A DNA stretch of 64,000 nucleotides from Acidobacteriota bacterium (GTDB taxonomy: Bacteria > Acidobacteriota > Vicinamibacteria > Vicinamibacterales > UBA2999). This document shows positions 4,339 through 8,580 of the stretch, piece by piece; within the stretch, counting starts at the first letter, position 1, and the number at the start of each line of letters is the position of its first letter. The position numbers were made by a program, and so were the translations under genes. The stretch covers positions 1-64,000 of the forward strand of contig JAUYQQ010000013.1 in assembly GCA_030697165.1 (NCBI GenBank), given 5' to 3'. Below the pieces are notes generated by a model, which did no database searches, was not told the origin of the DNA, and saw only the letters and a list, made by a program, of their open reading frames with translations.

Positions 4339-4686
4339 ATGCTGTCACGACGACACGTTGTTCAGGTGGGAGCGATCGCCCTGCTGAGTGCCCTTGCGCT
4401 GCCCTGCCGCATGCTCGCTGCGCAGCCACCCAATACCGCGGTTGTCACGTTGACGATTGAGGGCATGACCTGAGAGGGGTGCATTGCGCCAGTGCGGTCC
4501 GCACTGCTCTCCGTCAAAGGGGTCACTCGTGCCCAGGTCAGGCTCGAGAGCCACGAGGCCACCGTGACCTACGACCCGGCGCAAGCAACGATCGAGGACA
4601 TGATCAAGGCCGTGTCCGAAGCGCAAGGGCCAATCGGACAGGAATACACCGCTACCGTGAAGAAGGAGAAACCGGCATCCAATTGA
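4339..4686 (+). CDS. Selenoprotein: exported heavy-metal-associated (HMA/MerP-like) protein with Sec45
   Basis: Read through the in-frame TGA at 4471-4473, this gives one 115-residue HMA-domain protein. A signal peptide with a twin-arginine look (SRRHVVQ, then a hydrophobic run to LAA) is followed by a ferredoxin-like HMA fold: VVTLTIEGMT, then UGA, E, G, C (the GMTCxxC metal motif with the first Cys as UGA), then the conserved VRSALLSVKGV and the later ATVTYDP strand. Nothing is frameshifted and conservation continues unbroken past the UGA, so selenocysteine insertion is the best reading. A SECIS-like hairpin follows directly. HMA proteins bind soft metals such as Cu, Hg or Zn; Sec would strengthen binding of Hg(II) or redox behaviour. 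The gene diverges from the HAD gene and overlaps the kinase gene's 3' end by 35 bases. A nonsense mutation is the alternative. Confidence 0.8.
4471..4511 (+). promoter_or_regulatory. SECIS-like hairpin following UGA of the HMA selenoprotein gene
   Basis: A lower stem pairs GAGAG (4472-4476, starting inside the UGA codon) with CTCTC (4507-4511). An apical stem of seven perfect pairs joins 4490-4496 and 4500-4506 around GUC; opening the last pair gives the loop GGUCC. The apical loop begins about 24 bases after UGA, inside the 16-37 range described for bacterial SECIS elements, and a GU is present in the loop as SelB binding generally requires. Folding was done by eye. Confidence 0.65.
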
Positions 4687-7267
4687 GGACGACGCGCAAC
4701 TCTGAAAGCGCAGTCGCCGGTGAGGCGCTGGTGATCATCAGAAAACGCTCGTTGCCGCTCATCACGTCGTAGCCCGCGGCATCGAATGTGCCGGGCTCGC
4801 CCGCGGCGGCCAGGACCACGCGGCTCGGCTGGGGCGTACCGCCGGCCAGCGGCGCGGCGAGCAGCCGGCCTTCCGAACGATAGTAGAGCGCGCCGCCATC
4901 CCGGCGCCACACGGGTTCCGTCCCCCCCGTGACAGACACTCGACGCGCCGCGGCGGCCGGGCTCGTCGGCCGCAGGTAGACCTGCGGCTGGCCCGACTCG
5001 TTCGACACGTACGCGATCCAGCGACCATCTGGGGAGAACCGCGGCGCGCTTTCATCCGCTGTCGTGTTCATGAACGCGACGCGGTCTCCGCCGCGGCCGA
5101 GCAGCATGATGTCGCGGCCGGTCGAGGAATGCTGTTCCATGAAGGCCAGGGTCTGGCCGTCCGGCGACCACGACCCCGGGATCTGCAGCGACTCGCTCGG
5201 TGCCAGTCGCTCGGCGGACCCTTCCCCGTTCGCGGGCACGACGAACAGGTTCAGCGCGCCGTGGAGCGTGGACGCGAACGTCATGCGCTGGCCGTCGGCG
5301 GACCAGATTGGGGCGCGGTTCGCGGCCTCGAACGTCAGTTGCGTGAGCGCCCCGGTCGCCAGTTCATACGACCAGACGTGTTCGGCATTGTCGGCGACGC
5401 CAAGCAGGACGCGTCGCCCGTCGGGCGACAAGCGCGGGGTCACATACGCATGCAGCGGCGCGGCGAGCGGCGTCTGCTCATTGCCGTCGACCACGACCAG
5501 GCGCCGCGCCGCGGCCGAGAACGCCGGCTGATAGACCATCGCGCCCGACGGTGAGACCGCAAACTGCGCCGCGCCATCCACCGTCGTGGCCACCCGCTCG
5601 AGTGCCCGAACCGGTTTGCCGGTGACCGCCAGCCGTTGCGCGTCGAACGCGGCAATCCAGATGGCGCCATCGTGGGCATAGGCGAGGTGCCCCGACGAGA
5701 GGTAGCGCGGGTTGGTCCCACCCTTGAGCACCTCCGTCCGCCGGCCGCTGCTCAGTGAATACGCCACGATCGCGGCCTCATCCCATTCACCGACGGTACC
5801 AACGGTGAAGAGGATGGTGTCGCCGCCGGGAAGCGCCTCCGGCCATCGATGGCTGAACTCGCCGCGACCCACGTCGAGCTCGGTGGCGCGTGACGCAACG
5901 CCACCATCGGCGGAGACCCGCTGTAACGCGGCGCCAGTCGCCGCCGCAAAGACGATCGTGCCGCTGGTGCTCCAACTGCCGCCAAGGCCATCGGCCGCGT
6001 CGCAGATGACGACCGGCGGGCCGCCGCCGGCCGGCACCTTCTTCAGCCTGCCGTCGGCGAAGAAGGCCACCCATTGGCCGTCGGGCGAAAAGAACGGGCT
6101 GACCGCGCCGAACGTGCCCTGGAGCACGGATGCCGTCGCGGAATCGAGCGTCCGCCGCAGTAATTGGGTGGTGGCGCCGCGGCTGGCGGCGTAGACCACG
6201 GACCGGCCATCGGGCGCCATCGCGACCGCGCTGAGGGCCGTCGCGGCCAGCCGTTCGTCGTCGGGCAGCGCGATCGAGAACTTTACTTCGGTGGCCACGG
6301 CTGAAGGGAGCGGCCGCCAGGCGATCACCGCCAGGCCACCGAGAGCGGCGCCAGCCGCGACCCATGCCGCAGCGCGCATCCACGTGATGCGTCCTGCGGT
6401 GCCGCCCGGCGGCACGCCGGCCACGCCTTCGATCGCGGGCGGTTCTTCCAACTCCAGCCGCACATCGCCAATGTCTCGAAACCGGCGTCGCACGTCCTTC
6501 TGGAGACAGCGTTGCAACAGCCGCCGCACGTGCGGCGGCGTGTCCGGGGGCAGCGCCGACCAATCCGGTTCGCGCTCGAGAATGGCGGCGATGATGTCCG
6601 AGCGCGAGCCGCCGTCGAAGGCGAGGCGCCCGGTCAGCATTTCATACAGCACGCAGCCAAAGGCCCAGACATCGGTGCGGCGATCGACCGGTGCGCCGCG
6701 CGCCTGCTCGGGACTCATGTAAGGCGCGGTTCCGAGCACCGTGCCGCTGGTGGTCACCAGGGTCGAGTGGAGGGCCGCATCGGGGTTGTCGCTGTCCCTT
6801 CTCGCCAGGCCGAAGTCGAGAACCTTGACGTACCCGTCAGTGGTGATCTTGATGTTGGCCGGTTTCAGATCACGATGGATGACGCCGCGCTCGTGCGCGG
6901 CCTCGAGAGCCGCGGCGATCTGCGTGCCCAGTCGCAGCGCCTCGCCGCCAGTCACCGGGCCCCGGCGCAGCGTGTCGGCCAGTGTCTCGCCGCTCACCAG
7001 TTCCATGACGAGGCCGCAACTGCCGCCGAACTCTGCGAGTTCGTGCAAGGTGGCGACGTTCGGATGGTTGAGGGCGGCAAGAGCGCGGGCCTCCCGGCGC
7101 AGTCGGCTCAGGCTGTCAGGATGGTGGCAGAAGTCGGGATGCACCAGTTTCAGCGCGACCTCGCGGTGCAGGACCGTGTCGTGTGCCCGGTAGACCTCGC
7201 CCATGCCACCGGCACCGATGCCGCTGATGATTTGGTAATTGCCGAGCCGGGTCCCCGGGCTGAGCAT
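4652..7267 (-). CDS. Membrane-bound Ser/Thr protein kinase with C-terminal TolB/PD40 beta-propeller
   Basis: The 871-residue protein starts at ATG 7267, since MLSPGTRLGNYQII directly precedes the kinase glycine loop. The Hanks-type kinase domain (about 11-270) has GAGGMGEVYRA (18-28), the VALK lysine (40), HRDLKPAN (131-138), DFGLA (151-155) and MSPEQARG. A single hydrophobic helix follows near residue 300, then repeated PD40/WD40-like blades (SPDGRW, SPDGQ) fill the extracytoplasmic half. This architecture is common in Acidobacteria, where the propeller is thought to sense a ligand or cell-wall component and the kinase signals inside. Substrates are unknown. It lies divergently from the Sec-peroxiredoxin gene, 51 bases apart. 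Confidence 0.93.
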   Translation of the reverse strand: MLSPGTRLGNYQIISGIGAGGMGEVYRAHDTVLHREVALKLVHPDFCHHPDSLSRLRREARALAALNHPNVATLHELAEFGGSCGLVMELVSGETLADTLRRGPVTGGEALRLGTQIAAALEAAHERGVIHRDLKPANIKITTDGYVKVLDFGLARRDSDNPDAALHSTLVTTSGTVLGTAPYMSPEQARGAPVDRRTDVWAFGCVLYEMLTGRLAFDGGSRSDIIAAILEREPDWSALPPDTPPHVRRLLQRCLQKDVRRRFRDIGDVRLELEEPPAIEGVAGVPPGGTAGRITWMRAAAWVAAGAALGGLAVIAWRPLPSAVATEVKFSIALPDDERLAATALSAVAMAPDGRSVVYAASRGATTQLLRRTLDSATASVLQGTFGAVSPFFSPDGQWVAFFADGRLKKVPAGGGPPVVICDAADGLGGSWSTSGTIVFAAATGAALQRVSADGGVASRATELDVGRGEFSHRWPEALPGGDTILFTVGTVGEWDEAAIVAYSLSSGRRTEVLKGGTNPRYLSSGHLAYAHDGAIWIAAFDAQRLAVTGKPVRALERVATTVDGAAQFAVSPSGAMVYQPAFSAAARRLVVVDGNEQTPLAAPLHAYVTPRLSPDGRRVLLGVADNAEHVWSYELATGALTQLTFEAANRAPIWSADGQRMTFASTLHGALNLFVVPANGEGSAERLAPSESLQIPGSWSPDGQTLAFMEQHSSTGRDIMLLGRGGDRVAFMNTTADESAPRFSPDGRWIAYVSNESGQPQVYLRPTSPAAAARRVSVTGGTEPVWRRDGGALYYRSEGRLLAAPLAGGTPQPSRVVLAAAGEPGTFDAAGYDVMSGNERFLMITSASPATALSELRVVLNWMPVSPSSR

Positions 7268-7318: not shown

Positions 7319-7867
7319 ATGGTCAAGATCGTTGTTTCCTCTCTCCTGCTGTTCGCGTGGATGGCCGCGCCGGGCTTGAGCGCTGCTCATCAGGTGGCCC
7401 TGAAGGTCGGGGACCAGGCACCACCGTTCACCCTCCAGGGGTCGGATGGGCGCACCTACCGGCTCTCTGACTACAGCGGCAAGCAAGTGGTCGTGCTGGC
7501 CTGGTTCGCGAAAGCCTTCACCAGCGGTTGAACCGCCGAGTGCAAGTCACTCCGTGAGAGTGGCGAAGAAATCCGGCGGTTCAACGTCACGCACTTTGCC
7601 GTCAGCGTCGACACCGCTGCGACCAACCGTGCGTTCGCCCAGTCGCTCGGCGTCGATTATCCGATTCTGAGTGATCCCACCAAGGCCGTGGCCACGGCCT
7701 ATGGCGTGGTCGATGAAGACCAGCCATTCGCGTCGCGCTGGACATTTTTCATCGGGCTCGACGGCCGCATCCTGCACATTGACAAGCAGGTCAATCCGGC
7801 AACGCACGGCAAGGTCATCGCCGCCAGGTTGGCCGAACTCGGCGTCCGGCGCCGCGGGGCGCCCTAG
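7319..7867 (+). CDS. Selenoprotein: exported peroxiredoxin-like (AhpC/TSA, Bcp-type) protein with Sec71
   Basis: Reading through the TGA at 7529-7531 yields a 182-residue thioredoxin-fold protein ending at TAG 7865. A signal peptide (about 1-22) is followed by VGDQAPPFTLQGSDG, then WFAKAFTSG-U-TAEC, which matches the peroxiredoxin FTxGCTxEC motif with the peroxidatic Cys replaced by UGA (Sec71) and the next Cys at 75. The fold continues with FAVSVDTAATNRAFAQSLGV, YPILSDPTKAVATAYGV and WTFFIGLDGRILHID. Family enzymes reduce hydroperoxides; Sec at the attacking position is known in Prx-like bacterial selenoproteins. A long SECIS-like hairpin starts at the UGA. The QueC-like gene follows 35 bases later on the same strand. 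A pseudogene is unlikely because the downstream half is fully conserved. Confidence 0.87.
7529..7583 (+). promoter_or_regulatory. SECIS-like hairpin of the Sec-peroxiredoxin gene
   Basis: A perfect 10-bp lower stem pairs TGAACCGCCG (7529-7538, beginning with the UGA itself) with CGGCGGTTCA (7574-7583). An apical stem of seven pairs joins 7546-7552 and 7558-7564 (one U-G) with pentaloop CGUGA (7553-7557). The loop starts 21 bases after UGA and carries GU. Geometry matches bacterial SECIS elements, which must sit inside the coding region right after UGA. The stem encodes ordinary conserved residues, so it is embedded in coding sequence. Confidence 0.75.
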
Positions 7868-7902: not shown

Positions 7903-8580
7903 ATGAACACGCTGGTCCTACTCTCCGGCGGGCTTGATAGCGCGGTGCTGGCCGCGCACGAAGCCCAGACGGCCACGGTGCAACCGGTGTACGTCAGCGT
8001 CGGGCTGGCGTGGGAGCCTGGTGAACGGGCGACGGTCGAACGGTTGCTGACGTCGCCGCGGTTCGCGGGCAAGCTCCTGCCGCTGGCGTGCGTGGAGTTC
8101 ACCATGCGCGACGTCTACCCGCCGGCGCACTGGGCCATTCGCGGGGTCCCGCCGGCCTACGACACTCCCGACGCAGACGCCTATCTCCAGGGACGCAACC
8201 TGGTGCTGCTGACCAAGGCCGCGATGGTCGCCGCCCGCAGCGGCGCGACCCGCATTGCGCTCGGGCCGCTGGCCGGTAACCCATTCCCCGACGCGCGGCC
8301 GGAGTTCTTCGCCGCCATGGCGGCCGCACTGAGGCTGGGACTCGATCATCCCGTCGAGATCGCGACTCCGTTCTTGAGCTGGGGCAAGGCGCAGGTGATT
8401 CGACGCGGTGTCGAGCTGGGCGTGCCGCTGGAACTGACCCTCTCCTGCATGAACCCGGCGGCCGCTGATGTCGTGCCGCGGCACTGCGGGCTCTGCAGCA
8501 AATGCCGTGAACGAAGGGCTGCGTTCGCCGACGCCGCCGTGAGCGATCCGAGCGAGTACGCCAATCCCTCACCACGCTAG
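7903..8580 (+). CDS. QueC-like 7-cyano-7-deazaguanine synthase family protein
   Basis: A 225-residue PP-loop protein. The ATP pyrophosphatase motif LLSGGLDSAVLA lies at residues 5-16, the QueC-type GRN motif in YLQGRNLVLLTKAA, and a C-terminal zinc site is present in SCMNPAAADVVPRHCGLCSKC (four Cys with CxxCxxC spacing). QueC converts 7-carboxy-7-deazaguanine to preQ0 in queuosine or 7-deazaguanine-DNA synthesis. No queD, queE or folE is adjacent, so this may be a paralogue with another role. It follows the Sec-peroxiredoxin gene closely and may share its transcript. Confidence 0.8.
   Translation: MNTLVLLSGGLDSAVLAAHEAQTATVQPVYVSVGLAWEPGERATVERLLTSPRFAGKLLPLACVEFTMRDVYPPAHWAIRGVPPAYDTPDADAYLQGRNLVLLTKAAMVAARSGATRIALGPLAGNPFPDARPEFFAAMAAALRLGLDHPVEIATPFLSWGKAQVIRRGVELGVPLELTLSCMNPAAADVVPRHCGLCSKCRERRAAFADAAVSDPSEYANPSPR

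Follow-up and report, generated by a model that had tools for sequence, protein, structure and literature searches.

A predicted exported selenocysteine-containing peroxiredoxin with a conserved apical SECIS hairpin in an Acidobacteriota bacterium

The 64,000-nucleotide stretch of Acidobacteriota DNA analysed here (hereafter, the window) carries a gene that very probably encodes an exported selenocysteine (Sec) peroxiredoxin of the Bcp/AhpE type, in which an in-frame UGA is decoded by means of an RNA hairpin. Comparative evidence supports the decoding of UGA, the RNA signal, the family assignment and the fold, while our confidence in the statement as a whole, although high, is not higher because export, the reductant and the role of the second cysteine (Cys75) are inferred. 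The locus comprises the following features.

4652..7267, minus strand: Ser/Thr-kinase-like protein whose C-terminal half resembles a propeller, both parts named by eye; a recurrent neighbour in the clade of the window copy
7319..7867, plus strand: Sec-peroxiredoxin gene, 549 bases, 182 residues, predicted Sec at residue 71, TAG stop
7319..7384, plus strand: predicted signal peptide MVKIVVSSLLLFAWMAAPGLSA, a hydrophobic stretch; cleavage site placed by eye
7529..7531, plus strand: Sec codon (TGA) at the peroxidatic position; TGA or a Cys codon at 114/114 homologous sites
7529..7583, plus strand: extended stem-loop with a 10-bp lower stem, perfect between 7529-7538 and 7574-7583; complete in only 2/81 UGA homologues
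7541..7543, plus strand: TGC encoding residue 75, the invariant Cys at Sec+4 and putative resolving residue; Cys at 114/114 sites
7546..7564, plus strand: apical SECIS hairpin of 7 bp; arms 7546-7552 and 7558-7564, loop CGTGA at 7553-7557

The frame 7319-7867 contains a single stop codon ahead of its terminal TAG, the TGA at 7529-7531. The sequence-only reading had placed this codon exactly at the attacking cysteine of a frame that is otherwise intact up to a normal stop, and both points were borne out: the translated context is AWFAKAFTSG-U-TAEC, with T68-S-G-U71 corresponding to the TxxU active site, and the frame is open throughout except for this one TGA. The AhpC/TSA domain PF00578 was recognised in the protein with an E-value of 3.4e-33 and 114.7 bits, against a Pfam gathering score of 26, and Redoxin PF08534 was also matched (E 2.4e-23). 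In the genome search, the match in the organism's own genome likewise carries one TGA. The expectation that gene callers would miss or split the gene is justified, since the standard code truncates the ORF at codon 70, and the redox enzyme of this branch is therefore easily overlooked.

Homologues were taken from 40 genomes and from a named genome collection, which was queried with an alignment of five Sec and two Cys rows; the best 80 of 495 related stretches were retained from the latter, and since they were chosen with a mostly Sec query, the proportion of Sec forms is not that of a fair sample. The 111 loci covered (L016-L045, L050 and L055-L134, including that of the window; L137 and L138 were left out, and one or two copies were covered in multi-copy genomes) contain 114 homologous sites, where TGA was found 85 times, TGC 28 times, TGT once, and any other codon never. 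The first site pattern was restricted to eight residues at the Sec position, followed by T-x-E/Q-C; a recount with any residue allowed at and after the site returned the same 114 sites in 111 loci, with the same codon counts. A sense codon other than Cys at this position, which had been named in advance as grounds for abandoning the selenoprotein, is absent from these sites. Removal of four repeats left 81 TGA and 29 Cys distinct sites.

These data bear on one alternative, namely that the TGA is a mutated TGC or TGT, arising through decay or a sequencing error, in a gene that is either dead or codes for Cys. A Cys codon does occupy 29 of the 110 distinct homologous sites, which favours such an origin, but the same TGA recurs at 81 distinct sites in several phyla, and this genome contains a further copy in which both the TGA and the hairpin are found again. 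Constraint also persists 3' of the TGA. Over codons +13 to +105 after it, the window gene and L017 differ at 14, 12 and 38 first, second and third codon positions, respectively; third-position differences from L017, L056 and L081 number 38, 41 and 45, compared with 12–18 at positions 1 or 2, and the corresponding figures are 44 versus 21 and 26 for L061 and 52 versus 22 and 23 for L018, while L082 is out of register in this span and uninformative there. Such a pattern indicates that the sequence downstream of the TGA is under purifying selection. Together with the occurrence of the complete hairpin only alongside TGA, described below, this makes a pseudogene or an error extremely improbable, and we proceed with the reading of the codon as Sec.

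The predicted RNA signal lies within the coding sequence just after the UGA, as is expected of a bacterial SECIS element, and is predicted to be bound by SelB. The sequence-only reading had proposed an apical stem-loop beginning 21 bases after the UGA; the hairpin itself was confirmed, with the correction that in the window 21 nt is the distance to the start of the loop, and the apical stem starts at 14 nt. All seven pairs are formed in 70 of the 81 distinct TGA genes, six pairs in nine, four in one and three in one, whereas no complete hairpin was found among the 29 Cys genes, four of which form six pairs. When the TGA set was resampled with synonymous codons (1000 draws), complete hairpins numbered on average 2.4 of 81, and at most 8. 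Pair 4 is G-C in 67 of the TGA genes, A-T in 10, G-T in three and unpaired in one; in the window it is A-T, formed by the codons TCA..AGT in place of the common TCG..AGC, and since all of these encode Ser, the protein is unaffected by the change, which is compensated in the RNA. Pair 5 is C-G in 71/81 and T-A in 8/81 of these genes, and Fisher tests for covariation at pairs 4 and 5 gave about 2e-10 and 3e-10, respectively, with shared ancestry ignored. The loop is mostly CGTGN and opens with CG in 78 TGA genes, GG in two and AG in one; its first codon is CGT in 74/81 cases, compared with 42 of the 430 Arg codons elsewhere in the same genes. The bSECISearch rule calls for a G among the first two loop bases, and the window loop, CGTGA, has it.

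The comparison indicates that conservation of the SECIS element resides in the 7-bp apical hairpin and not in the 10-bp lower stem. The latter, reported earlier as a perfect stem starting at the UGA, is present in the window, but all ten of its pairs form in only two of the 81 UGA homologues, and a conserved lower stem was rejected. A scan of the entire window with Rfam gathering thresholds yielded no match, and the hairpin was found by comparison instead. Remnants of the element were sought in the Cys homologues, and none of the 29 was significant singly at P < 0.05; as a set, they form a mean of 4.34 of the seven pairs versus 3.45 after resampling (maximum 4.14 in 1000 draws), a surplus that is only suggestive of SECIS remnants.

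The genome to which the window belongs (5.39 Mb, with a completeness of 100% as given by the tool) contains all components of the Sec-decoding trait, that is, selA (532.7 bits, cut-off 267.9), selB (309.3 bits, cut-off 242.25; a 666-residue frame, with the C-terminus matched separately), selD (354.7 bits, cut-off 125) and selC, the gene for tRNA-Sec (61.9 bits, Rfam gathering threshold 47). A tRNA-Ser also exceeds the Rfam cut-off for tRNA-Sec, at 50 bits, so that weight is carried by the ARAGORN assignment of tRNA-SeC with the anticodon TCA. The search for the sel genes had been set as the test that could refute UGA decoding in this organism, and the claim passed it. Taken with the codon and hairpin data, Sec decoding of this UGA appears near certain. 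The selD gene at L053 (G000:C8:377000-384000) has an in-frame TGA of its own, in the context SCAG-U-ASKL, and is itself a predicted selenoprotein.

Among the 40 genomes, including that of the window, 19 have the TGA form of the peroxiredoxin gene, 11 have the Cys form only, and 10 have no match of E 4.3e-32 or better, one of the latter (G036) having a more distant match that bears TGA. Scores over the cut-off were obtained for selB in 19/19 TGA-form, 5/11 Cys-only and 3/10 no-match genomes, and for selA in 18/19, 5/11 and 5/10, respectively; the TGA-form genome without a selA match, G005, is 85% complete. The difference in selB between TGA-form and Cys-only genomes has a Fisher p of 0.0008, with ancestry ignored.

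Another exported-looking Prx-like selenoprotein, with the motif SADW-U-PYC (UxxC) and a C-terminal domain, was observed at L135 (G000:C8:61500-65500) and L139-L142. The TGA is present in the window's own genome and in four relatives (5/5), and in all five cases a perfect potential hairpin, GCAGCTC-GTG-GAGCTGC, lies shortly after it.

Most of the named homologues of the window gene are from Acidobacteriota, Planctomycetota and Verrucomicrobiota; one bin carries the label Chloroflexi, and another is labelled simply as bacterium. In an even sample of the phylum, the family was detected at E 1e-40 in 32 of 199 genomes, 25 of which have a TGA within the match, at an unspecified position. On the tree of 110 rows, which is unrooted and whose bootstrap had not settled, eight Cys groups sit among Sec rows and the Sec/Cys state changes at least eight times, with five of the changes forced by starred branches. 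Counted by fewest changes, most of the switches would run from Sec to Cys, although the sample was selected by resemblance to queries that were mostly Sec.

The window copy falls into a six-row Acidobacteriota clade with support of 99/92, all members of which have Ala or Val instead of the active-site proline; Val is also found at this position in L020, outside the clade. The paralogue in the same genome, L050 (G000:C16:160200-166700, minus strand), also has TGA, with the hairpin in its common form, and belongs to a different clade, which means that two branches of the family coexist in this genome. Two neighbouring TGA copies were seen at each of L112 and L127, and a TGA copy side by side with a TGC copy at L032. 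In a search for plasmid carriage, no match to P0001 was obtained at E 1e-20.

The mature part was modelled with AlphaFold2 from 38 rows, Cys being substituted for Sec, and the mean pLDDT is 94.6. The Sec position is modelled at the start of a helix (mature residues 47-58) that also includes the Cys at Sec+4, and the nearest structures are Bcp, PrxQ and AhpE peroxiredoxins, with Z up to 22.9. In the corresponding alignment (A2), all 38 rows share the Thr at Sec-3, the Cys at Sec+4 and one Arg; we take this Arg to be the equivalent of the catalytic peroxiredoxin Arg. Cys75 is the sole Cys of the mature window protein. The proline of the PxxxTxxU motif is replaced by Ala64 in the window, the A2 rows having Pro in 32 of 38, Ala in four and Val in two. 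The N-terminus is hydrophobic, with a mean hydropathy of 2.4 over 11 residues, and 98 of the 110 rows pass a crude hydropathy test (five fail, and seven are unscorable). Export, as claimed from the window alone, therefore gains support from the family and is likely for the window protein.

An exported redox protein of this kind could also be a genuine selenoprotein whose main role is thiol-disulfide exchange in the folding of envelope proteins, and not the removal of peroxides. Such a role would agree with the probable export and the Sec-x3-Cys pair, with the weak scores against ResA/TlpA-type models, and with the lack of the active-site proline in the window clade. However, CxxC is absent from the protein, the Thr at Sec-3 and the Arg are strictly conserved in the alignment, and the closest structures are peroxiredoxins of the Bcp/AhpE/PrxQ kind. 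On balance, we consider the folding role unlikely, and peroxidase function, as judged from the family and the active-site residues, likely.

For the peroxidase, we propose the following course of events. SelB and Sec-tRNA(Sec) would read the UGA, guided by the apical hairpin 14 nt downstream in the coding sequence, and the Sec-containing protein would then be exported from the cytoplasm. There, Sec71, positioned by Thr68 and Arg140, would attack a hydroperoxide and be converted into a selenenic acid; Cys75, located in the same helix, may then resolve this acid as a selenenylsulfide, and some reductant would finally restore Sec71. The parts assigned to Cys75 and the reductant are inferred. Among the neighbours of the window gene viewed by eye, none was recognised as a reductant partner.

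The gene for the kinase-propeller protein is divergent from the peroxiredoxin gene, with 51 bases between the start codons. Kinase domains are encoded near the gene in 4/6 loci of the window clade and in 3/101 other loci (p about 1e-4, ancestry ignored), which makes the kinase–peroxiredoxin neighbourhood a lead. One could hypothesise that the protein is a peroxide sensor or relay coupled to this neighbour, and not a bulk scavenger. While the enrichment favours coupling, L056 shows only the propeller part, located downstream, a contig end truncates L081 on its upstream side, and such Ser/Thr kinases are common in these bacteria; we regard this possibility as a little less likely than the folding role. 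Still more doubtful is the extension that the whole window clade is a peroxide-sensing branch, in which a signal of oxidation in the envelope would be relayed to the kinase through the Sec-x3-Cys switch; it stems from the loss of the proline combined with the retention, as a neighbour, of a divergent Ser/Thr kinase with a presumably extracytoplasmic propeller.

Other neighbours were noted in passing. On the plus strand, an ORF at 7903-8580 with the start MNTLVLLSGGLDSAV begins 35 bases past the peroxiredoxin stop and is possibly co-transcribed with it; judged by eye from its SGGLDS motif, it is presumably of the QueC type. Inspection of the largest neighbour groups revealed a long upstream ORF on the opposite strand in nine loci, AsmA-like by eye. 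In L058, L060 and L062, from Planctomycetota, a redoxin-looking ORF with LCYRC lies directly downstream of the Cys form.

The comparison with known systems draws on parts of PMC1794560, PMC13188914, PMC12013277, PMC5029168, PMC9312934, PMC4807772, PMC5302317 and PMC5811025. Sec-peroxiredoxins are already in print, and the kind of enzyme described here is not new. Zhang 2006 (PMC1794560) lists 12 Prx selenoproteins with the site T/SxxU/C and counts four selenoproteins of three families in Acidobacteria; later reviews give the Prx site as TxxU, or as PxxxTxxU (PMC13188914), and cite a 2001 paper on the Sec-peroxiredoxin (PrxU) of Eubacterium acidaminophilum. The family may already stand in the supplementary tables of published selenoprotein surveys, possibly among the counted Prx. 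The table in PMC1794560, as far as consulted, gives no Sec-to-Cys change for Prx, and the present set could therefore be used to test that direction: the family is well sampled, has at least eight Sec/Cys switches, and once rooted could be informative. If the protein is exported, uncultured bacteria of three phyla would be using selenium-based chemistry beyond their cytoplasm. Two features set the active site apart from that of typical peroxiredoxins and can be tested, namely the Cys at Sec+4 and the absence of the proline.

The window protein departs from described enzymes in its proline position relative to the published motif, in its Cys spacing relative to the PrxQ of C. glutamicum, and in its score with the NCBIfam PrxU model. 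With the Sec Prx (TxxU; PF00578/COG1225; PMC1794560 and later reviews) and PrxU, it shares the AhpC/TSA fold, a peroxidatic Sec, the Thr at Sec-3 and UGA; it differs from them in being probably exported, in the Cys at Sec+4, and in having Ala for the PxxxTxxU proline (Ala or Val in its clade), and it scores 54.7 bits with the PrxU model NF040737, whose cut-off is 270. The PrxQ/BCP proteins have the same fold (Z 22.8 to Xylella PrxQ), whereas the window protein has Sec for Cys and attains 77.5 bits with the model NF006960, below the cut-off of 140; this is its best NCBIfam score, and no NCBIfam model reaches its cut-off. In the C. glutamicum PrxQ, according to PMC5811025, the resolving Cys lies five residues after the peroxidatic Cys, compared with +4 in the window protein; PMC5302317 describes the position of the resolving Cys as inconsistent across PrxQ, so that the +5 spacing is not a strict criterion. 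A limited literature search on the PrxQ resolving cysteine found no CXXXC-type PrxQ, which does not imply its absence from print. AhpE of Mycobacterium tuberculosis shares the fold, with 30-32% identity in structural alignments, and is a 1-Cys enzyme by the titles of 1xvw and 1xxu, in contrast to the invariant second Cys and the predicted peroxidatic Sec of the window family. The 'Prx-like thiol:disulfide oxidoreductase' selenoproteins (UxxC/UxxU) have PF00578 and a Sec redox site in common with the window protein, but the motif of the latter is TxxUxxxC and not UxxC, and the same genome encodes the UxxC protein (SADWUPYC) separately. By analogy, the window protein should work like the established Sec-peroxiredoxins.
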